From a virus, in the IMG/VR virus record IMGVR_UViG_3300033981_000926, positions 1-20,920 of that record: DNA of 20,920 nt. The stretch is one strand, 5' to 3'. Position numbers and translations under genes: made by a program. The number at the start of each line of letters is the position of its first letter. Position 1 is the first letter of the stretch. Shown in pieces: positions 2,960 through 17,377 of the stretch. A model generated the notes under the pieces. The model did no database searches, was not told where the DNA came from, and saw nothing but the letters and a program-made list of their open reading frames with translations.

Positions 2960-3126
2960 TGATCCGGTTTGGCAGCAAAAAGTTTGGCGGAATCATCAAG
3001 GGATCGTGGGCGTTTGGACTTTCGGCGCATGGCTGGGTGGTGCGTAATTACGACGGAGGCGATGTTTGGTTTCTGGTGCTCATTATTCCGGCGGCGGAAG
3101 TGACGTTTCATTGGAGGACACCGTGA
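2959..3126 (+). CDS. 55-aa hydrophobic hypothetical protein
   Basis: The start is ATG 2959, eight bases after GGAGG (2946-2950) and overlapping the previous stop (TGATG); the longer frame from 2872 is only a shadow. The peptide has a basic, Gly-rich first half (IRFGSKKFGGIIKGSW) and a hydrophobic patch (VWFLVLIIPAAEV, about 37-49) that is short for a transmembrane helix. A small membrane-associated or beta-structured accessory protein is possible. The GTG of the next gene overlaps its stop. Confidence 0.5.
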   Translation: MIRFGSKKFGGIIKGSWAFGLSAHGWVVRNYDGGDVWFLVLIIPAAEVTFHWRTP

Positions 3127-3993: not shown

Positions 3994-4782
3994 TTATGAT
4001 CCGCTGGGGCCGGTTGGGCCGGTTGGGCCAGTCGCCCCGGTCGGTCCAGTCGGGCCGGTCGCCCCCGTTGCTCCTGTCGGACCTGTGGCACCCGTTGGGC
4101 CTGTCGGGCCTGTGGGACCGGTTGCGCCAGTAGGACCGGTCCCTGCCGTCCACGCCCAGTTCGGCACAAGTCCCCAAATCAAATCGCCGCCGGACGTGGC
4201 TTTGCGCGCCTTTTGCAGATGGGTGGTGGTAAGCTGGTCGATGCGAAGGCTTGTTCTCAGGTCCGGGAAATCGCCGGGATCAGGAAACGGAGCGTCCGGC
4301 ATACCATTGACCGTGCTCTTTTCGGTCTGACAGGCGCGCACGTAGGCAATGGGTTGTCGCCAGACGTTGCTCACCCCGGCGTTGTTCGTGAACATCGAGT
4401 TGCCCCAGCTTGCGCCCCATGTCAGCGTTGGGCCTGCGGTGATTGCCCCGGCAAAGCTAAACGTCATCTCCAGCCACACCCAATCCCCGCTAGTCAGCGT
4501 CATCCGGTTGTCGATATTGGCGATGGCGGCGGTCTGTGTCAGGTCGGCTTCATCGAGGAAAATCCAGCCGCGCCGCACGTAGGCGTAAGCGGTCGTCTCG
4601 GCATTGGACGTGAAGCCAGCGCCATACACCTCGAACGGGTGGAGCTTGAGCAGCGCCGGGATGCGGGTGAGAGAATCCGGGTTGCGCCCAGGATATTCGG
4701 ACGCGCCTCCGGCATCCGGTTCCGGCAGTCCGGCTGGAATGACTTCCCGTATACGGGCCAGCGTGGCGTCAAGTTCTTCCAT
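3994..4782 (-). CDS. Collagen-like appendage protein
   Basis: A 262-aa probable structural (fibre or appendage) protein. Residues 1-210 form a mixed domain with Trp-rich beta stretches ([14 protein letters not shown] at 99-112, [13 protein letters not shown]) and no recognised family. Residues 215-259 are 15 uninterrupted collagen-type triplets, 14 of them GPT or GAT, after which the protein ends at once in GS. Collagen-like stalks trimerise in phage fibres and bacterial exosporium proteins. Here the tract is at the extreme C-terminus with no trimerisation domain after it, which is unusual. The ATG overlaps the stop of the upstream gene (TGATG), and the glycosyltransferase follows two bases after its stop. 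The role as a virion surface protein is inferred from this context. Confidence 0.7.
3997..4140 (-). repeat. Collagen-like Gly-Pro/Ala-Thr coding repeat
   Basis: A GC-rich 9-bp-based repeat encodes 15 Gly-X-Y triplets, with Thr at Y in all but the last. The complementary strand reads as a Gly-Pro-Val repeat and the other minus-strand frame is also free of stops, so all these frames are open here by composition. Such repeats change length by slippage in whole triplets. Confidence 0.9.
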
Positions 4783-5864
4783 CAGAACGTATCAGCTTGA
4801 ATCTTGGTCAGCCGCCAGAGGTTGTATTTCCAGTATTCAACCACTGCGGAAAGCACCACTCCGGTTCTTCCCGGATAGGCGCTGGCTGTCGGCGAGGTGT
4901 TTCCCCACGAAACGGATTCAACGATGTAGGGCCACTTTGGGTTTTCCGTGCCGGTGGTGTATGGCCCCAGCGTCACAGCGTTAGTCAGCACGTCGCTCTC
5001 GCGGATGGCCGGGATAAACCACGGGTCACGGACGAGATCAATGGTGCCGGGATTTTCCAGCGTCAGAGCAGCTTGTGCCGTCAGCATGTTCGCCTGGGTT
5101 CCGAATGTCTTGGTGCGCGTCATCTTGACTTCGCGAGTCATGGATGCGCGCTTTGTCCACACGATGCTCAAAGCCGGGGTGCCGTCACGGGCTGTTGTCG
5201 AGTTCAGCACCGCATTTGTAATCAGCGCCGGAGCCTTCATCTTGCCGGTCGGGTAGTCCACCACCGACAGGGCCGCAAAGTTGGAAAGCGTCGTGGTGAC
5301 TTTCATGCCGTGAACGGCTGAAATCGGCTGATAAGTGATTTCGCTGCCTGCAACCTGCGTGAATGGCAGAGTTGGCTTTGTGATCATCTGCATCGTGACA
5401 GTGACTTCGGTGCCAGTCTCTCCGTCCACTTCGGCCCGTATCATTTCCGTTCCCGGCAAATCTCGGGTTTCGTTGATTTCCGTGGCGATCAGGTCGTCGT
5501 TTTCCTGCTCGTAAAAGTTGCGAATCAACACGACTGAACTCACCGTTTCAGAACTGGCAATGTTGGCTTTGATATTTCTCCGGCGCTTAACCGTGACGAT
5601 TTTGCTGTCGCGATCAATCCGGGTGCTCGTTACCCACGGGCCGGGGAAAATCGAGTAGGACCACATGACGCGCCCATCGTTTTCTGCGGGAGCAGCGCCA
5701 TGAAAGACGTGATTCGGCCAATTTACTTCGTCGGGATGCGGCGCGAGGTCGGCTGGAACGGCGTAGCCGGGGGCGCGCGGGTCGCACAGGATGCCGAGAA
5801 TCGGGTAGTCCGTGTTGTCGGCGTCGTATCCGGTAATTACCGTTAATTTACCAAGCTGGGGCAT
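4782..5864 (-). CDS. Probable phage structural protein, unknown family
   Basis: 360 residues from the ATG at 5864. The open frame extends to a TTG at 5942, but an extended -10 promoter at 5906-5914 would start transcription near 5899, downstream of that TTG, which favours 5864. The sequence is soluble, Thr/Val-rich and mostly beta-like ([40 protein letters not shown] near the end), as in baseplate, spike or tail appendage proteins. No catalytic motif, signal or coiled coil is seen. It is the first gene of a three-gene minus-strand operon with the collagen-like protein and the glycosyltransferase, overlapping the former by one base, so a shared role in one appendage is likely. The exact virion position is unknown. 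Confidence 0.65.
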
Positions 5865-5905
5865 GTGCGGAGTTTCTACTGCACTTCCGTAAAAATAGCA
5901 ATTGC

Positions 5906-5914
5906 ATTTTAGCA
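5906..5914 (-). promoter_or_regulatory. Extended -10 promoter of the minus-strand operon
   Basis: On the minus strand the sequence reads TGC-TAAAAT, an extended -10 element with five of six -10 bases. No good -35 box precedes it, as is common for extended -10 promoters. Transcription would begin near 5899 and give a leader of about 35 nt before ATG 5864. No strong ribosome site is visible in that leader. Confidence 0.5.
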
Positions 5915-5935
5915 GGAACGCAACTACTTTGCTTT

Positions 5936-5951
5936 GCGGCAAATCTGCCGC
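5936..5951. repeat. Perfect 6-bp GC hairpin/dyad
   Basis: GCGGCA (5936-5941) and TGCCGC (5946-5951) flank AATC. It lies in the 179-bp gap between the divergent structural and HNH genes, just upstream of the extended -10 of the minus-strand operon, where an operator would be expected. As RNA it would form a stable tetraloop hairpin. Confidence 0.5.
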
Positions 5952-5983
5952 GCGTCCGTTTAGACCGGATCAACTTTTGAATT

Positions 5984-6033
5984 TGCTGCCCCGTGCTGTG
6001 CTCAGTCGAGCGCAGGTCTAACGCGGGGCAGCA
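5984..6033 (+). other. 50-nt two-stem hairpin before the HNH gene
   Basis: An outer stem pairs 5984-5995 with 6022-6033 (12 bp, ten consecutive Watson-Crick pairs, then one G-U and one G-C). Directly stacked on it an inner stem pairs 5996-6003 with 6008-6015 (8 bp, one G-U) around the loop AGTC. Only a six-base bulge (6016-6021) on the 3' side interrupts it. The structure ends 10 nt before the ATG at 6044. No T-run follows on either strand, so it is not a simple terminator. It could be a translation-control element, a processed RNA, or the end of a mobile unit carrying the endonuclease gene. Confidence 0.6.
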
Positions 6034-6043
6034 CTCGAAATAC

Positions 6044-6550
6044 ATGAAAACACCAGAAGAAAAGCGACTTGCAGCAAAAGAGTATGGGAGGATTTGGAGG
6101 AACATTAACAGAGAGCGATTTAATGAAAGCAGAAGGAAGTGGGTGCTGGCAAATCCCTCTCTTGTAAAAGGCTATCAAAGAAAGCATTATGCAAAAAACA
6201 AAAAGAATAGAACTGCAAACACACGGAAATGGCGGGCTAACAATCCTGAAAAAATCAGTGCAATAAGGCACCTACGGTATGCTCGCAAGCGCAACGCCAC
6301 CATCGGCGATCCGAAAACGATTGCCAAGTGGGAGAAGTCCTGGCGCACCAAAAAATTCGCAGTCTGCTATTGGTGCTCTGCTCGCGTTTCAACCAAGAAG
6401 TGCCACATGGATCATATCAACCCAATCGGAAAAAACGGCGAGCACTCCATTGAAAACCTCTGTATTTCATGCCAGCCATGCAACAATAAGAAGTGGGCCA
6501 GTGACCTGAAAACATGGAACAGCCGAATCAAACAGCCGGTGCTATTCTGA
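6044..6550 (+). CDS. HNH endonuclease (probable homing endonuclease)
   Basis: 168 residues from ATG 6044; an upstream in-frame GTG at 5993 lies inside the hairpin and is less likely. The C-terminal third is an HNH/zinc-finger nuclease: CYWC (108-111), CHMDHINPIGKNG (120-132, with the D-H catalytic/metal pair at 123-124), ENLC and ISCQPCNNKK (138-150), giving paired Cys zinc ligands and the final Asn of the motif. The first 100 residues are very basic with a repeated pattern of Arg/Lys helices around NPS or NPE (RKWVLANP, RKWRANNP), seen in other phage HNH enzymes as DNA-binding repeats. The gene is visibly A-rich compared with its GC-rich neighbours, which suggests recent transfer. It stands alone between a minus-strand and a plus-strand operon. 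A group I intron host could not be recognised. Confidence 0.85.
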   Translation: MKTPEEKRLAAKEYGRIWRNINRERFNESRRKWVLANPSLVKGYQRKHYAKNKKNRTANTRKWRANNPEKISAIRHLRYARKRNATIGDPKTIAKWEKSWRTKKFAVCYWCSARVSTKKCHMDHINPIGKNGEHSIENLCISCQPCNNKKWASDLKTWNSRIKQPVLF

Positions 6551-6559
6551 GAGATTTTC

Positions 6560-6578
6560 CGTTTTTTACGTAAAAACG
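6560..6578. repeat. AT-rich hairpin with TTTTTACGTAAAAA palindrome
   Basis: CGTTTTT (6560-6566) pairs with AAAAACG (6572-6578) around TACGT; the core TTTTTACGTAAAAA (6563-6576) is a perfect 14-bp palindrome. It lies 9 bp after the HNH stop and 39 bp before the start of the morphogenesis operon. It may be a terminator for the HNH gene or a regulatory site for the operon. A related TTTACG...CGTAAA dyad lies before the portal gene. Confidence 0.55.
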
Positions 6579-6617
6579 CCTCTTGCTTATGCGGTATTTC
6601 TGTGTAAAACAGCAGGC

Positions 6618-7316
6618 GTGTCCTTCACCATTGCCAATGCCGTTGCGCGTCTCACAGGGTCGAGGTTCAACCTCTTCCTGACGCAAAACGGGCAGATGAG
6701 CAACGTGCAGCAACTCCAGCGCATCAATCAGGTGCTCGAACAGTTTTGGCTGAAAGGCTCGTGGCCGGGGCTGCACACAGAGGCGACGGTGACATCATCC
6801 GGCGGCGTGATTACTCTGGACGCCTCGTATTTGCGGCTGGACGGGCTGGCCGCGTCCAAGGACTTCACCGCGCCGGATACCGGGTGCTGGACGAACATTG
6901 CCATCAAACCGATGCAATATCGGTGGCAACCGGGCGGACCGGGCTATTTCGATCCAACCGACGTTTGCGGCGTGGTCGCCTACGATCTTGGCGATGTTGG
7001 CGGGGTGCGGAAGTATCAACTGACCGGGGACGCGGCGACGCTCGACACCTACGAATACAGGGGGTTTGCCCGCAAACGCTACGTGTGGGCGACGGCTGAC
7101 AGCACGGTTGTTTCACCAGATTGCTACCCGGCGCTGGAAATGGGCGTGCGCGCCTACAACGCCGAGGATGAGCAGGCCGACAACGCGGATGCGCTATGGG
7201 CAAAGGCGTTTCAGGCGTTGAATGATAGCATGGGGCAGTTTAATGAGGGAAATGAATACGGCGTTCTCCAAACCGATCCTGCCATCAGCATGGGGCAGGT
7301 CGCGAACCTGATCTAA
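6618..7316 (+). CDS. Putative head-tail adaptor (connector) protein
   Basis: 232 residues from GTG 6618; an internal ATG at 6696 is a less likely start because it would remove coding-like sequence. The layout is an N-terminal helical part (NVQQLQRINQVLEQFWLK, about 28-45), a central beta-rich domain (TVTSSGGVITLDASYLRLDG at 55-74 and on), and a C-terminal helix pair (ALEMGVRAYNAEDEQADNADALWAKA, about 174-199, quoted in part: PALEMGVRAYNAEDEQ). This resembles the helical-bundle-plus-beta plan of T7 gp11-type tail tubular A or other head-tail adaptors, and the C-terminal helix is typical of them. Position at the head of the morphogenesis operon agrees. This is fold-style recognition, not a sequence match; another structural role is possible. 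There is no good ribosome site. Confidence 0.55.
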   Translation: MSFTIANAVARLTGSRFNLFLTQNGQMSNVQQLQRINQVLEQFWLKGSWPGLHTEATVTSSGGVITLDASYLRLDGLAASKDFTAPDTGCWTNIAIKPMQYRWQPGGPGYFDPTDVCGVVAYDLGDVGGVRKYQLTGDAATLDTYEYRGFARKRYVWATADSTVVSPDCYPALEMGVRAYNAEDEQADNADALWAKAFQALNDSMGQFNEGNEYGVLQTDPAISMGQVANLI

Positions 7317-7922: not shown

Positions 7923-8857
7923 TGGCTGCACTTGACCAAGAAGACCCTCGCAACGTCGCTATCCGCCAGAACGAGGCGGATGCGCGCTACATGCGGCAGA
8001 CGACGCCGGGAGAAAGGGCGATGGACCAGCGTGCCGCGTTTAACGAAGCCTCTCTGCGCCAACGGTCGGAGGCCGCTGCGGCACGGCTCGGCATGGAGCA
8101 ACAGCGCGTGAACATTGCGGAAGGGCGCGCCGGTCTGTCTGAGTTGCGGATGAAGATTGCCGAGGAAAAGGCCAGATTGGCGGAGGCGGATGCGCTTTCC
8201 AAGGCGCAACGCGAGCTGACCGTTATGCAAGAAGCGAGCGGATTCTTGCGGGACGCCGTGGGAATGGACCCAACGAAACCTTCATTTGATGAGCAGTTTC
8301 AAAGGATGCTGGCCGGCTATCCGAACGCCAGTGAGAGCAAAAGCGTGAAGGAGTGGATTGACTACCATCGTCCGATTGCGGAGTCGCGGCGCGCGGAACA
8401 GGCAAAAATCGCCACGGAAAAGCGCGCGGCGGACGCGGCGGCTGCGGAACTCGCCCGATTGGCTGGAATCGCGCCGGACATGCCGGTGACACAGGTGGTA
8501 TCGGATGGGGTCACTCGCAAAATGCCGGATGCCGCAAAGCCGAAAGAAGAAAAGCCCGACACATGGGACGCTTACGAAAAGGCGCTCGCCGCTGCGCGTA
8601 AATCACTCAGCATTCCGGTCGCCAAGAACGCCAAGGATCAAATTCCGCTTCCTCCAGAGATTCAGGCGCAATTTGAAGCGCGCGGAGCGGCGCTGACCAG
8701 AGGCGGGGCGATGCCAGTGCAGACGACTCAGCCGCAATTCACCGTTGGAAATCCAAACGGAACGCCTCCGGCAATCGCGCCTGTCGCGCCTGCTGCGGCA
8801 AGCCCAAGCGCAATCAGGATGAAATACGTTGACGGAAAACTCGTTCCCGCATCGTGA
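7922..8857 (+). CDS. Coiled-coil protein, probable internal virion protein
   Basis: 311 residues; the start is fixed by GGAGG nine bases upstream and a one-base overlap with the previous stop. Residues about 30-110 form a long Ala/Glu/Arg coiled coil (RVNIAEGRAGLSELRMKIAE, then KARLAEADALSKAQRELTVM), and a second helical segment lies at about 155-185. The C-terminal 60 residues are Pro/Ala-rich and disordered, ending in MKYVDGKLVPAS. Long helices followed by disorder, directly before the giant polyvalent gene, fit a small internal or ejection protein that assembles with it. A scaffold is a less likely alternative because a better scaffold candidate lies after the portal. No enzymatic motif is seen. 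Confidence 0.6.
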   Translation: MAALDQEDPRNVAIRQNEADARYMRQTTPGERAMDQRAAFNEASLRQRSEAAAARLGMEQQRVNIAEGRAGLSELRMKIAEEKARLAEADALSKAQRELTVMQEASGFLRDAVGMDPTKPSFDEQFQRMLAGYPNASESKSVKEWIDYHRPIAESRRAEQAKIATEKRAADAAAAELARLAGIAPDMPVTQVVSDGVTRKMPDAAKPKEEKPDTWDAYEKALAAARKSLSIPVAKNAKDQIPLPPEIQAQFEARGAALTRGGAMPVQTTQPQFTVGNPNGTPPAIAPVAPAAASPSAIRMKYVDGKLVPAS

Positions 8858-8858
8858 A

Positions 8859-11800
8859 ATGGCTACGTTCCAAATTGAAACGCCGCATGGAACGCTTGAA
8901 ATAGAGCACGACGGGGACGCATCATCGCTGACTCCAGCGGTGCATGATTGGGTTCAAGGTCAGTCAAATCTCAAAGCAGCGGACGAATATCTCGCGGCGT
9001 CATCAAACGTCACGCCGAAGACATCGTTGCCGGAACTCATCACGCCAGCGCAACCCGTCGCCGGGCCGAACATCGAAGGCGCTGGTTACGTGGAAAAGCC
9101 ACTGCAATTCACAGCGCCGGAAACGGCACTTGGACAACTTGCGAAAGGCAACATTCCGGGTGCGGTCGGAACTGCGGTCGGAACCGCTGCTGGCGCTGTT
9201 CGCGAATCACTGACGCCTATTCTTGGGCCGACCGAGGAACGGATTGCCGCTGAGTCCGTGCCGTGGGGAACCAATCCTGACGGCAGCGTGAAATACGAAT
9301 ACAAGCCGATGGCGGACTTGATGACGCGCAAGGGCATCTTCGCCACGCCGGAAATGTTCGATCTTGCGCCGATTCCACCTGACCCGAATGACCCTGCGTG
9401 GGAGGCCGCACTCAAGGCCGGAACCAATCAGGCGGCGGCGTTTGCAAAGTTTGGCATGAGTCCAGGCGGGGTTTTGATGACGGCTATGGGCGGTGCCGGT
9501 GCTCTTGCAAATGCGGCAAAAGGACTGGCCCCGGCTGGGCTTGGCGCGGAGAGCGCGGGCGCAGCGCAGATTGCTTCGACGCTCGCCAAGACAGGAAAAG
9601 GTGCCGCTGGATTCTTCGCCGTGGACATGGCGGCGGCAGCGCCGGAACAATTCGCGCAGGCGTTTAACGCACCGACATTGCAGGGCAAGATTGAGGGATG
9701 GATTGGGGCGGTGTCGTCACTTGGCTTTTCGGCGCTGGCAACAAAACACGCCCTAGGGAAACCCCTTACTCCCGCTGAAAGCGGAAAGGTGGAAAGCGTA
9801 GCCGAGATGGCAAAGAGAGCGCCGGATGCTGTCTTGGAAACGGTGGCGCAACCAAGAAACAACTTCGATGTTTATTCGCAAGCCATCGCTCAAAATGAGC
9901 TGATTCGCCGGTTCAAGGAGCAGCAAGCCGCACTCGCGCCGGAAGCCACTGCCGCAGCGGAGGTCGCGGCTACGACGCTTCCAAGCGGCAAGGCTGGACC
10001 GCCTGACCCGGTGGCGACTGCTGCCGGTGCTGTCAAGACAACGGAGGATGCTGCGGCTGCGGGAAAGCCGTTCGCGCCAAACATTGAAGGTCCGATCACT
10101 GAGGCGCAATACGGTCGCACGTTGGATGCGTTCGACGTGACCGCCGGAATGGAGCGCAAACCCCTTTCGCCAGCCCCGTCGGGCACACCCACACCGGAAC
10201 AACCGCCTTCGGTGGCTGGCGCACTTTCACCCGAGCCGACACGCACGGAGCCGTCGCCGGTCGCTACCCCGGCGGCGGCTGTGCCGGAAATAGGCGACAG
10301 GATTACCGTATCCCTTGGTGGTCGAGGCGTGACGGAGACGATACAAAAGATTGTCAATACGCCGATTGGTATCCGTTATCAGATAGACCATTTCGGCAAA
10401 AAGCTGGTATCTGCGGAAGACATCACGGCACATGAACCTAAGACGAAAAAGGCCGCGAAACCGATGGACGAACAGCAGGCGCAACGGCTTAAACGAGACT
10501 TGGAAGACATAGCTTCAAGAGCCCCAGCCCCCGCGCCATCGCCCGCGCCCGCTGCGCCGGTTGTTTCCAAAATCCAATCCGGCCAAAAGCAGGGTGATTT
10601 GCAGCTTGGCGCTGAACCGCTCAAGCTCGAAACGGAAACTGTCAGAGCCGAAGCGCCCAAACCGAAGGGACCGGAACCGACCGTTCAGCAGACTATCAAC
10701 GACGCCTTAGACGCATACGGCGATTTGCCGAGCGCATGGGAGCATCTGGACAATCAGGTGAAGTCGCTGGAAAACAACAAGGCGAACAAGGCTGCTATCA
10801 CCCGACTCAACGCCGCCAAGCGCAAGATTGAGAACACTCTGGAAGAAGAGGCGCGGCGCGCGGAGGTGGAGCAAGTGGATGCGTTCAACACCGGCCTTTA
10901 CGAACTGGAAAGCAGCATCAAGGAGCTTGGCGGCATCGCCACTACGACCGGCAAAGGCGAAGGGTCCGGCGGAGAATTGAGCCGCATCGCAGAGGCGCGG
11001 AAAGGCGCGTTCTTGAAGCTGTTTCGCAAGAACGCACCGTCGCATGACACGTTGCGCGAGGGATTGGAGGAGCGTGGATTCCAGTTTGCCACACCGGACG
11101 AAATGTTCATGGCGCTGGAAGATTCCATGCGGTCAGGAAAGAAACTTTACGGCAGTCAGTTTCCCGAGGGATACACTGGCGGTCCCGGCGCGATGGGGCC
11201 AGTGGAAGCGGCGTATCAGGCTGCGTCACGAAGGATTCTTGGCGGATATAACGCTGAGGTGGAAGCGGCGCAAATCCGGCGCGGACAGGTGCCGACGGTC
11301 AGCGAAGCGCGCAAGGAAGACCCGGTGACATTCGAGAACGCGATGGACGCGATTGAAAAGAATCCGGCACTGCCGGAAAAGCTGGTCGATGACATTCTCA
11401 AAAAGGAAAAGAAGTCCATCACCGATGAGGAGCAACAGATGCTTACCTATCGCCGTGCCGAGCTTGAAAACAAGATGGCGGCGGAAAGCGAGCGCGCCAT
11501 TGATCCGTCTTTGACACCAGAGCAACAGGCGGTTCACCAGACCAATGCGGAAGTTTTCGAGGCGCAACTACTGCGAGCAGAAGAAGCGAATCGGATGGCC
11601 GGAACGGCGAGTGGTCGCGCATTGCGGTCGCGGCAGATGGAGATGAATGACGACTACACCTACGCCGGGCTAATGATGCGCGAGCGTCGGGCGACAGGCG
11701 AGGTTGTTCCGAAGGAACGCGCTGCGGAGCTTCGCAAAACTGCCGAGGAGATTAAGAAAGCGCAGGCAGAGGTAGATCGGCTGGTGGAAGAGTATCAAAA

Positions 11801-14800
11801 AAAGGAGGAAGAAGCCGCCGTGGATTCGGTGCTGGCCGCTGCCATCGCTGACAGGGAAGCGCAGAAGGCCGCCGCGCAGAAGTCCGGCGATCTGCCGTAT
11901 CATCCGTCCATCCTCGCCCGCGCCGAGGAAATTGTGAAGGGCATTGAGGCCAAGCGCGATGAGCTGCGCGCCAAGGTGGATTGGCGAAAACTGTTTGGAA
12001 GTCAATCCGGCGCGGTTGGTGGCGTCGGTGGCGGCAAGGGTGAAGGAAAGCCGATGGGTGGAAAGTCTAGGGCACAGGAAGCGCGCGAGGCACGCGCTGC
12101 CGCCGTGGAATATCTAGCCTACGAAATAGCCGCGCATATCAGCAGGTTTGGTGTGAATCGAGCGAAGACGTTGGAAGTGATGCTTGGTCGCTTCGACGAC
12201 AGTATCAAACCGTTTTACGGAAAAGCGTGGGACGCAGCGCAAAAGATCGTAGGCGGGAAAACCAGGTCCGAAAAACCAAAGGTTGCGGAAGCCGTCAAAA
12301 CCGGGGCGACCGCACCGGAGAAGCAACCAAAACCGCCCAAGTCCAAGGATACGCTGGTTGGCGAGGGGCGCGCGGCAGTCGAGAAAGGCGAAGGACTGCA
12401 CAACGTGGTGGCGCAAATCGTGGACGGCATGATTGACGCCGGGAATCGTGACCGTGCCGACATCTTCAAGCGCACGACCAAGATTGTGCAGGAGTTCATG
12501 CCGGAAGCCACAGAGCGCGACGTGAATCGCGCGTATGTGGATTACGGAAAGAAGACATACCCGAATCCTGACGAAGCGGCGGCTTTCAAGCGCAAGACGC
12601 GGCAGGTGAAGAAAATCGGTGAGGACATAGACCGCCTGAAAGAGAAACTTCGCCCGGAACTGCAAGGGTATCAGCGCGAGAAGCTGGACCTCGAATTGCG
12701 CGATCTGGTGAAGCAGCGGAGCGAATTGCTGAAAGACCCGTCCTTGCCACAGGAACCGGGTGCGTTCGCATCGAAGGATGAGGCCAAGCAGACCCGCATC
12801 AAGAACCGCATCGAGGAGTTGGACCGCTACTTGAAAACCGGCGAGAAGCCCGTTGAGAGCAAGCCGACGCAGCCCGACAGCGCGAAAACCGAGCAGATGC
12901 GCGCCGAGAAAGAGGCGCTGGAAGCCTACGTTCGCGAAGTGGACGCCGCCAAGAATCCGCCGTTGTCCGATGCTCAAAAGGCACTGGATTCTGCCATGAT
13001 AGCACGCGAACGCGCCGGGCAGACCTTGGACGACATTTCCACCGGCAAGGTGAAAGACCCGGCGAAGATCAAGGAGGCGCTGACGCAACTGGAAGAGGAT
13101 GTTCGCCTCGAAACCGATGCGCTCAAGGCGCTCGCCGCCGAGATGCGCCGGGACGCCAAGAAGCCGGGCGATCCTGGCTATCTGAAAGAGCAGGCGCAAA
13201 TCAAGGCGCTCGAACGCGCCATATTCAGCTATGCCGAGAAAGTGGCGAAGGGTGACTTGGCCGGCAAAGGAAAGGTGCAGGGGCCGGACTCTCAGCGCGT
13301 GACGCAACTGAAAGCCATCCGCGATTCGCGCCGTGCCGCGTATCAGGCGGCTAGGAACGCCGGAAAGCCGGTGCTATCACCGGAACAGCGTTGGAACGCC
13401 ACGCGACTAAAGGCTCTGACCAAGCGCGAGGCCGACTTTAAGGAGAAAATTCGCACCGGACAGTATGCGCGTCCTCCCAAAAGAGTTCCGCCGAAGATGG
13501 ATCAAGCCACGCAGGATGCACAAATCCGCATGGATGCGATAAAGCAAAAGTTTCTAAAGGAGCAGTTCGATTACTACCAGAAACAGCGCGCCCTTGGCAA
13601 AAAAATCACTGACGGAATCGGGCAGACGCTACGTGCTGGCATCAATATCGTGTCATCCACCGATTTGAGCGGATTCCGTCAAGGCATGGGCGCAACCATG
13701 ATTGCTGTCGGAAAAACCGTGTTTCCGGTGGATATTCGTCGCGGTGTTTCTGGAAAAACGGAAGTTGTTCTGACCAACCCGCTTAAATCGGCCATGATGA
13801 TTCTCAGGCCCGCTGCGAAGATGATCGTGGCGGGTATTTCTGAGCAAAAGGCGAGGCGCATGGAAAAGGCGCGAGAGAACCGGCCAAACGCCAAAAGCGG
13901 GGCGTATGATGAGATGGCCATTGACCAGACAACGCTGGATACAAAGGTTCACTCGAAGCATGAGGAGATGATGTATTCCGTGCTGGACGAATGGGCGCAG
14001 CTTCCAATGCGAACCGGCTCCACCGGAAAAACCATCATCACGGCACCTGGAAAAGTTGCCGCCAAGGTTGTTCACGCCTCAAACCGCGCCTTCAATACGC
14101 TGCTTAACGAGATGCGTCTTGACCTTGCCGATGCGCTCCTTGCGGAAAACTTCAAGGACCGTTCGCCAACTTCGGCAGAATTGAAGGTGCTTGGAAACTT
14201 GGTGAACATAGCAACCGGGCGCGGCAATATCAATCCGAAGATTGCCAGAGGCGCAGGAATGGTGTTTTGGGCACCGTCGCTTTTTGCCAGTCGCCTAAAG
14301 GGACTTGCTCTTGAACCCGTATGGGGAGCAAAACAGCAGTGGAAAGGAACAGGCCGCGCCCGTGCGGCTGTTGCCAAGGATTACGCCCGAGTGATTATCA
14401 GCGGATACTTGCTCTGGAAAGTTGGACAGATGTTCAGTGATGACGACGTTGACACAACTAACCCTACATCCAGCGACTTCGGCAAGATCGTTCGCGGCAA
14501 CACGCGCATTGATCCGTGGGGAGGGCATCAACAGGTTGCAGTTTTTGCTGCCAGAGCAATTACAGGAAAAACCACTTCCATAACCGGCAATGAGAGGGAA
14601 AACAACCTTGGCGATGTGATTGCGAATTTCGGCAGAAACAAACTGCGACCGGACTGGGGAGCACTTTGGAACGCTTACGAAATTTACCACGACAAGCAAA
14701 GACCAGGAAGGCCGCAAACCTACTCAGAGGTTGTTGCGTCCATGTACACGCCAATGTCACTGCGCGATATTGCCGAGGTAATGCGCGACCGTGGAATGAG

Positions 14801-14888
14801 CGAAGGAGCGATTATCGAGGCTCTGGCCATGTTTGGCGCTGGCGTTGCTGTGTATGGCGACGAGGATGAGACAAAGGCACGCCGATGA
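8859..14888 (+). CDS. Giant polyvalent internal virion protein (2009 aa)
   Basis: The start is ATG 8859, one base after the previous stop; the frame begins at 8829 but those residues overlap the preceding gene. Visible parts in order are: a short beta-like N-terminus (FQIETPHGTLEIEHDG); a Gly/Ala-rich hydrophobic region (about 190-300) that could enter a membrane; Pro/Ala linkers; a small beta module (GDRITVSLGGRGVTETIQ, about 479-496); a long series of charged helices and coiled coils with Lys/Arg/Glu richness (about 600-1550); and a C-terminal domain (about 1560-1900) containing SNRAFNTLLNEMRLDL, FWAPSLFASRLKGL and FGKIVRGNTRIDPWGG. The last set resembles the C-terminal domain of 'large polyvalent proteins' of phages (LPD38-like; family number not certain). 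Such proteins are packaged in the capsid and ejected into the host. No polymerase, protease or muramidase motif was recognised. It overlaps TerL by four bases. Confidence 0.75.
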   Translation: MATFQIETPHGTLEIEHDGDASSLTPAVHDWVQGQSNLKAADEYLAASSNVTPKTSLPELITPAQPVAGPNIEGAGYVEKPLQFTAPETALGQLAKGNIPGAVGTAVGTAAGAVRESLTPILGPTEERIAAESVPWGTNPDGSVKYEYKPMADLMTRKGIFATPEMFDLAPIPPDPNDPAWEAALKAGTNQAAAFAKFGMSPGGVLMTAMGGAGALANAAKGLAPAGLGAESAGAAQIASTLAKTGKGAAGFFAVDMAAAAPEQFAQAFNAPTLQGKIEGWIGAVSSLGFSALATKHALGKPLTPAESGKVESVAEMAKRAPDAVLETVAQPRNNFDVYSQAIAQNELIRRFKEQQAALAPEATAAAEVAATTLPSGKAGPPDPVATAAGAVKTTEDAAAAGKPFAPNIEGPITEAQYGRTLDAFDVTAGMERKPLSPAPSGTPTPEQPPSVAGALSPEPTRTEPSPVATPAAAVPEIGDRITVSLGGRGVTETIQKIVNTPIGIRYQIDHFGKKLVSAEDITAHEPKTKKAAKPMDEQQAQRLKRDLEDIASRAPAPAPSPAPAAPVVSKIQSGQKQGDLQLGAEPLKLETETVRAEAPKPKGPEPTVQQTINDALDAYGDLPSAWEHLDNQVKSLENNKANKAAITRLNAAKRKIENTLEEEARRAEVEQVDAFNTGLYELESSIKELGGIATTTGKGEGSGGELSRIAEARKGAFLKLFRKNAPSHDTLREGLEERGFQFATPDEMFMALEDSMRSGKKLYGSQFPEGYTGGPGAMGPVEAAYQAASRRILGGYNAEVEAAQIRRGQVPTVSEARKEDPVTFENAMDAIEKNPALPEKLVDDILKKEKKSITDEEQQMLTYRRAELENKMAAESERAIDPSLTPEQQAVHQTNAEVFEAQLLRAEEANRMAGTASGRALRSRQMEMNDDYTYAGLMMRERRATGEVVPKERAAELRKTAEEIKKAQAEVDRLVEEYQKKEEEAAVDSVLAAAIADREAQKAAAQKSGDLPYHPSILARAEEIVKGIEAKRDELRAKVDWRKLFGSQSGAVGGVGGGKGEGKPMGGKSRAQEAREARAAAVEYLAYEIAAHISRFGVNRAKTLEVMLGRFDDSIKPFYGKAWDAAQKIVGGKTRSEKPKVAEAVKTGATAPEKQPKPPKSKDTLVGEGRAAVEKGEGLHNVVAQIVDGMIDAGNRDRADIFKRTTKIVQEFMPEATERDVNRAYVDYGKKTYPNPDEAAAFKRKTRQVKKIGEDIDRLKEKLRPELQGYQREKLDLELRDLVKQRSELLKDPSLPQEPGAFASKDEAKQTRIKNRIEELDRYLKTGEKPVESKPTQPDSAKTEQMRAEKEALEAYVREVDAAKNPPLSDAQKALDSAMIARERAGQTLDDISTGKVKDPAKIKEALTQLEEDVRLETDALKALAAEMRRDAKKPGDPGYLKEQAQIKALERAIFSYAEKVAKGDLAGKGKVQGPDSQRVTQLKAIRDSRRAAYQAARNAGKPVLSPEQRWNATRLKALTKREADFKEKIRTGQYARPPKRVPPKMDQATQDAQIRMDAIKQKFLKEQFDYYQKQRALGKKITDGIGQTLRAGINIVSSTDLSGFRQGMGATMIAVGKTVFPVDIRRGVSGKTEVVLTNPLKSAMMILRPAAKMIVAGISEQKARRMEKARENRPNAKSGAYDEMAIDQTTLDTKVHSKHEEMMYSVLDEWAQLPMRTGSTGKTIITAPGKVAAKVVHASNRAFNTLLNEMRLDLADALLAENFKDRSPTSAELKVLGNLVNIATGRGNINPKIARGAGMVFWAPSLFASRLKGLALEPVWGAKQQWKGTGRARAAVAKDYARVIISGYLLWKVGQMFSDDDVDTTNPTSSDFGKIVRGNTRIDPWGGHQQVAVFAARAITGKTTSITGNERENNLGDVIANFGRNKLRPDWGALWNAYEIYHDKQRPGRPQTYSEVVASMYTPMSLRDIAEVMRDRGMSEGAIIEALAMFGAGVAVYGDEDETKARR

Positions 14889-17343: not shown

Positions 17344-17346
17344 CTA

Positions 17347-17365
17347 TTTACGCAAACAACGTAAA
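17347..17365. repeat. TTTACG...CGTAAA dyad before the portal gene
   Basis: TTTACG (17347-17352) and CGTAAA (17360-17365) are perfect inverted copies around CAAACAA. The dyad fills the 34-bp gap between the Cys-rich gene and portal ATG 17378, the only real gap in this part of the operon. It may be an RNA hairpin or a regulator site. Confidence 0.5.
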
Positions 17366-17377
17366 AACTCCGCACAG

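Follow-up and report, generated by a model that had tools for sequence, protein, structure and literature searches.

RNA structures are known in the leaders of several phage endonuclease genes. A 2010 review describes such structures as sequestering the ribosome binding site in I-TevI, I-TevII, I-TevIII, segB, and mobE (PMC2988022). The last of these is a free-standing HNH gene of phage Aeh1 (PMC2988022, PMC3014915). Reduced initiation has been shown for the mobE structure and implicated for the segB structure (PMC3014915), and late transcripts of I-TevI lack the inhibitory structure (PMC2988022, PMC3014915). A different arrangement is described for seg43 of Aeromonas phage 25, whose enzyme is similar to segD, a GIY-YIG endonuclease. 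There, a very stable hairpin lies just upstream of the ribosome binding site without covering it, and its effect on translation was undetermined as of that review (PMC2988022).

The window analysed here is the whole 20,920-nt stretch of a virus record (IMGVR_UViG_3300033981_000926, positions 1–20,920). As in the T-even type, an endonuclease gene in it has a stably folded RNA leader. Like the seg43 leader of phage 25 as the review describes it, the window has a very stable hairpin directly 5′ of a free-standing phage endonuclease gene, and no Shine–Dalgarno sequence is covered. Unlike the segD-like enzyme of phage 25, the window enzyme is an HNH protein; in addition, the window has no recognised T-even relation, and no Shine–Dalgarno sequence is visible before the ATG. 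The locus also resembles mobE of Aeh1 and segB and I-TevI of T4 in placing structured RNA at the point where translation of a phage homing endonuclease begins. Unlike those genes as described in the two sources, it shows no paired Shine–Dalgarno sequence at a working distance, and a sigma-70 scan, whose model may not be that of the phage, gave no internal promoter. By this comparison, seg43 of phage 25 would be the closest precedent among the systems these sources describe, and the window hairpin is likely a new example of an already known kind, the RNA-structured leaders of phage homing endonuclease genes.

A stable hairpin upstream of an HNH gene

The main hairpin (window 5984–6033, + strand) is predicted to be composed of a 12-bp basal stem (5984–5995 paired with 6022–6033) and an 8-bp apical stem (5996–6003 paired with 6008–6015), closed by a tetraloop (6004–6007). 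The single bulge, GUCUAA, comprises 6 nt (6016–6021) on the 3′ side. A first-pass annotation had described 20 bp in two stacked stems with a one-sided bulge, and refolding reproduces this description and its coordinates exactly to the base. The annotation had missed an outer extension of 6 bp (5975–5980 paired with 6035–6040, + strand), which brings pairing up to 3 nt 5′ of the ATG. The predicted unpaired probability of the extension is 0.03–0.11 for positions 6035–6039 and 0.31 for position 6040. In the centroid structure, two small hairpins are predicted further upstream in the same leader (5936–5970, + strand).

The region 5970–6060 (+ strand) folds with a predicted energy of −40.3 kcal/mol (z −5.5), which is equalled by none of 200 shuffles, and 5984–6031 folded alone gives −31.5 kcal/mol (z −5.0). 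In a sliding scan with 6954 sampled segments, the hairpin is the most stable 60-nt segment on the + strand, with −37.0 kcal/mol as compared with −33.7 kcal/mol for the best segment on the − strand. The antisense of the hairpin region folds with −30.8 kcal/mol versus −40.3 kcal/mol for the sense strand. This better folding of the sense strand favours a role at the RNA level.

Between the main hairpin and the ATG at 6044 lie 10 nt, as the first-pass annotation had stated. The gene that starts there (6044–6550, + strand) encodes a 168-residue protein with a C-terminal HNH domain, a nuclease domain of a homing family. The assignment is made by Pfam HNH (3e-07, 30.9 bits; cut-off 21.4) and PHROG 2118 HNH endonuclease (2.9e-14), with a further match to PHROG 1035, endonuclease VII. 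Scans of bacterial genomes found no member of this HNH subfamily. The GC content of the gene is 0.458 versus 0.578 for the window, and a value as low is found in only 0.4% of 507-bp windows. The strongest fold of the window therefore adjoins a gene of low GC content.

Several known identities were considered for the hairpin. No T-run follows it on the 3′ side and the terminator scan gave no match there, which bears out the earlier remark that a terminator tail is lacking. Rfam covariance models, including that of the IscB-associated omega RNA, gave no match to the hairpin region, consistent with the earlier view that the element resembles neither group I introns nor IscB RNAs. Terminator, tRNA, and Rfam identities were rejected, as the respective scans were empty. 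The location directly 5′ of an HNH gene would also suit a component of an RNA that partners the enzyme, similar to the omega RNA of IscB. However, besides the absence of an Rfam match, HNH is the only recognised domain of the 168-residue protein, and the hairpin is not conserved among the HNH relatives. Therefore, an RNA partner is extremely improbable.

The occupied site and its empty counterparts

Upstream, the hairpin and the HNH gene are flanked by a divergent gene without a Pfam or PHROG family (4782–5864, − strand). Downstream, they are flanked by a gene with a weak match to an SU10 adaptor (6618–7316, + strand; PF24175, 25.0 bits, below the cut-off of 27). The downstream gene is 85–99% identical in six relatives and in a partial seventh. 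Farther away in the window are a protein with a collagen-like GPT/GAT-repeat tail that matches phage tail fibre PHROGs (3994–4782, − strand) and a 2019-residue ORF without a Pfam family (8829–14888).

Both the HNH gene and the hairpin are absent from all seven related viral contigs with a readable homologous intergenic spot (L010, L011, L012, L013, L014, L015, and L072). This count omits L075 and L076, in which the match starts at residue 73 and the spot is not readable. The empty site in the seven contigs consists of two divergent genes, the divergent neighbour being kept, with only a short stretch between them. BLAST blocks to L010–L015 end at 5901–5913 and restart at 6599–6681, and the right flank is alignable by MAFFT from about 6557. 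The segment missing from the relatives thus has approximate limits of 5914 and 6556 (+ strand) and comprises the leader, the hairpin, and the HNH gene. No blastn match to 5900–6620 was found in the phage collection. The HNH protein has a match in one of seven related records, that of the sister phage G001, at a different place, and the leader DNA was found in none of the same seven records in a search without a positive control.

Like a free-standing homing gene, the HNH gene is intergenic and is missing from close relatives of the phage that has it, and we infer that it is mobile. Given the empty sites in the relatives, the HNH gene elsewhere in G001, the leader not found in the related records, and the low GC content of the HNH gene, it is more likely that the hairpin and the HNH gene were gained as a unit in the lineage of the window than that they were lost repeatedly. 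The hairpin probably belongs to this inserted unit. The first-pass annotation had raised the possibility that it is part of a mobile unit, and the comparison supports this: in none of the seven contigs is the hairpin kept without the gene (0/7). One occupied site and seven empty sites provide a clean natural comparison for the hairpin as part of a mobile unit.

Location inside the missing segment is also compatible with a DNA-level element, such as a palindrome terminating the mobile unit, a site that the HNH protein binds or cuts, or a REP-like repeat, and the hairpin folds as single-stranded DNA as well (−21.2 kcal/mol, z −4.3). However, it is not positioned at the end of the segment, and it was found once: when the window was scanned for ungapped inverted repeats, an unrelated pair alone was listed, the seven related records yielded no copy (in the search without a positive control), and viral contigs gave no exact-pattern match (0). 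Moreover, the antisense folds clearly worse, which a DNA palindrome does not need. We therefore regard a DNA-level element as very unlikely.

In the closest relatives, the empty site carries a dyad, TTTACG-N7-CGTAAAAA, which is also found near the start of a 795-residue ORF (window 17360; 17345–17367) and at G001 9040, and a longer dyad of the same kind is located at G001 17055. The CGTAAAAA sequence is over-represented in the window (5 occurrences versus 0.56 expected). The dyad, repeated near gene starts, is a candidate phage promoter or operator. In the window, a copy of the empty-site region, CGTAAAAA..GCAATTGC, is present to the left of the unit (5886–5905, + strand), and sequence comparison places a diverged copy to its right (6557–6586, + strand), beside the gene start at 6618. 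Each neighbour therefore keeps one copy. The two flanking copies may be either a duplication made by the insertion or a regulatory repeat brought with the unit.

A separate structured RNA candidate was observed in the related phages. It is large (461 nt, −239.7 kcal/mol), is located at L010:1300–1760 (G001 about 44800–45260), and is also found in L062–L068; it is absent from the homologous place in the window (2960–3123). Its hairpin units have the form stem1-ACA-stem2-loop-stem2′-CA-stem1′, with four in L063 and none in 300 mononucleotide shuffles. Ten distinct units occur over seven contigs, several of the seven sequences being identical, with changes on both sides of the stems. The spacers are GGC-rich low-complexity DNA, and no Rfam match at the gathering threshold was found in the sources scanned. 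It may represent a new class of phage RNA or act as an RNA sponge.

Hairpins upstream of other HNH genes

The nearest relative of the HNH protein is encoded in the sister phage G001, at another location (L002:4818–5582). It, too, is preceded by a strong hairpin (L002:4740–4830, −36.8 kcal/mol, z −4.7), the main stem of which ends 9 nt before the ATG. The L002 hairpin has a 5-nt bulge, also on the 3′ side, and a paired GAGG in the 3′ arm, a possible Shine–Dalgarno sequence. By eye, the sequences of the two hairpins are not alignable. The sense strand again folds better than the antisense (−36.8 versus −28.9 kcal/mol). The antisense folds worse in both the window and L002 because the weak pairs of the sense strand are G-U. 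Selection on the HNH transcript would produce such a bias, although few pairs are involved. A hairpin of this kind is missing from the two remaining close HNH relatives, L029 and L026/L030. Also within L002, at G001 about 38805–38864 (− strand), lies the strongest 60-nt fold scanned in G001, a two-stem hairpin (CCCGCGC..GCGCGGG) with −45.3 kcal/mol.

Among 21 distinct HNH loci, the upstream fold ranks in the best 5% of locus blocks at four (window, L002, L009, and L018). This set omits duplicates or near-duplicates of loci that were kept (L004, L017, L021, L025, L030, L034, L038, L039, L042, and L043). Among annotated gene starts in named phages, best-5% upstream folds occur at 3 of 19 HNH starts (L018, L052, and L061) and at 9 of 122 other gene starts. 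A rank test detects no shift in upstream fold strength between the two groups (p = 0.86; 19 vs 122). The 19 starts are from 18 of 45 matching phage records, and three of them are shared with the 21-locus set. A rule that HNH genes carry a leader hairpin was rejected, as upstream folds are no stronger there than at other genes.

Two further structures were observed in this survey. In L009 (4713–4764), a GGGGG just 5′ of the ATG of an HNH gene is paired in a long hairpin (z only −2.0), the classical arrangement for sequestration. In Pseudomonas phage vB_PaeS-D14C, a perfect 12-bp hairpin (L061:2881–2908) is located near the end of the ORF preceding an HNH gene.

The frequency of strong upstream folds at ordinary genes and the lack of enrichment among HNH relatives are what would be seen if the window hairpin were an ordinary hairpin, with no function for the HNH gene and carried along in the inserted DNA. 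We consider this unlikely, since the hairpin is the strongest fold of the window, is located exactly before the start codon, and has a sense-strand bias. A more far-reaching proposal is that the small homing genes of the HNH type in this uncultured phage group carry a sense-strand RNA module of their own, a hairpin with two stems and a 3′ bulge located just before the start codon. The module would change freely in sequence but retain its form and position, and the HNH protein or an RNase would read it to set expression. This proposal is distinctly unlikely. The arrangement of leader hairpin and HNH gene is limited to one locus, perhaps two.

The translation start and possible control of expression

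The first-pass annotation had suggested that the hairpin could limit translation of the nuclease. The predicted cost of opening positions −20 to +13 of the HNH start is 18.0 kcal/mol and falls to 4.4 kcal/mol when the hairpin is removed; for ten further starts placed by hand in the window, the cost is 6.6–11.8 kcal/mol. Costs above 18.0 kcal/mol are predicted for at least 10 of 51 automatically chosen ORFs, some of whose starts are misplaced. Opening positions −12 to +13 of the HNH start costs 6.4 kcal/mol, an ordinary value. The suggestion is thus plausible, as the cost over the longer interval and the T-even precedents speak for it, but the cost close to the start codon is unremarkable. No Shine–Dalgarno-like sequence is visible between the hairpin and the ATG (6034–6043), indicating that nothing classical is sequestered. 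A GGGG at 6025–6028 is paired, but is 15 nt from the ATG.

The hairpin could instead be an RNA processing or stability element, either a site of the RNase III type cut at the asymmetric 3′ bulge or a 5′ stem–loop protecting the HNH mRNA. RNase III sites of phage T7 consist of a pair of stacked stems interrupted by an asymmetric bulge or internal loop. The window hairpin is similar in its stacked stems and asymmetric bulge, as far as its sequence tells, and its main irregularity, like that of the L002 hairpin, is a one-sided 3′ bulge (6 nt in the window, 5 nt in L002) that separates a long basal stem from a shorter apical one. In addition, since the upstream neighbour is divergent, transcription of the HNH gene would begin within the leader, and the hairpin would therefore be near a 5′ end. 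However, the sigma-70 scan recognised no promoter in the leader, and two hairpins are too few to establish a common 3′ bulge beyond chance. Processing or protection of the RNA is thus possible but doubtful. Weighing the opening costs for and against, we rank translational restraint first and RNA processing or protection second.

We put it as about evenly balanced that the hairpin acts in cis as the 5′ leader structure of a homing-type, free-standing HNH gene, arrived with that gene, and throttles or times its translation. The structure, its position, its absence together with the gene, the preference for the sense strand, and the second hairpin before a related HNH gene in the sister phage were all observed; we infer that the hairpin is transcribed, that it lowers translation, and that it affects timing. 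In the sense transcript, the 20-bp hairpin and the 6-bp extension would reach to 3 nt before the AUG and cover the upstream half of the ribosome landing site, and initiation would therefore be slow as long as the structure is present and closed. Its loss or opening might come from a transcription start within the hairpin or from processing of the bulge. The outcome would be that a DNA-cutting enzyme is kept low or late. If translational restraint is the correct reading, self-restraining RNA structures of selfish endonuclease genes would extend to a phage group that is not recognised as T4-related.
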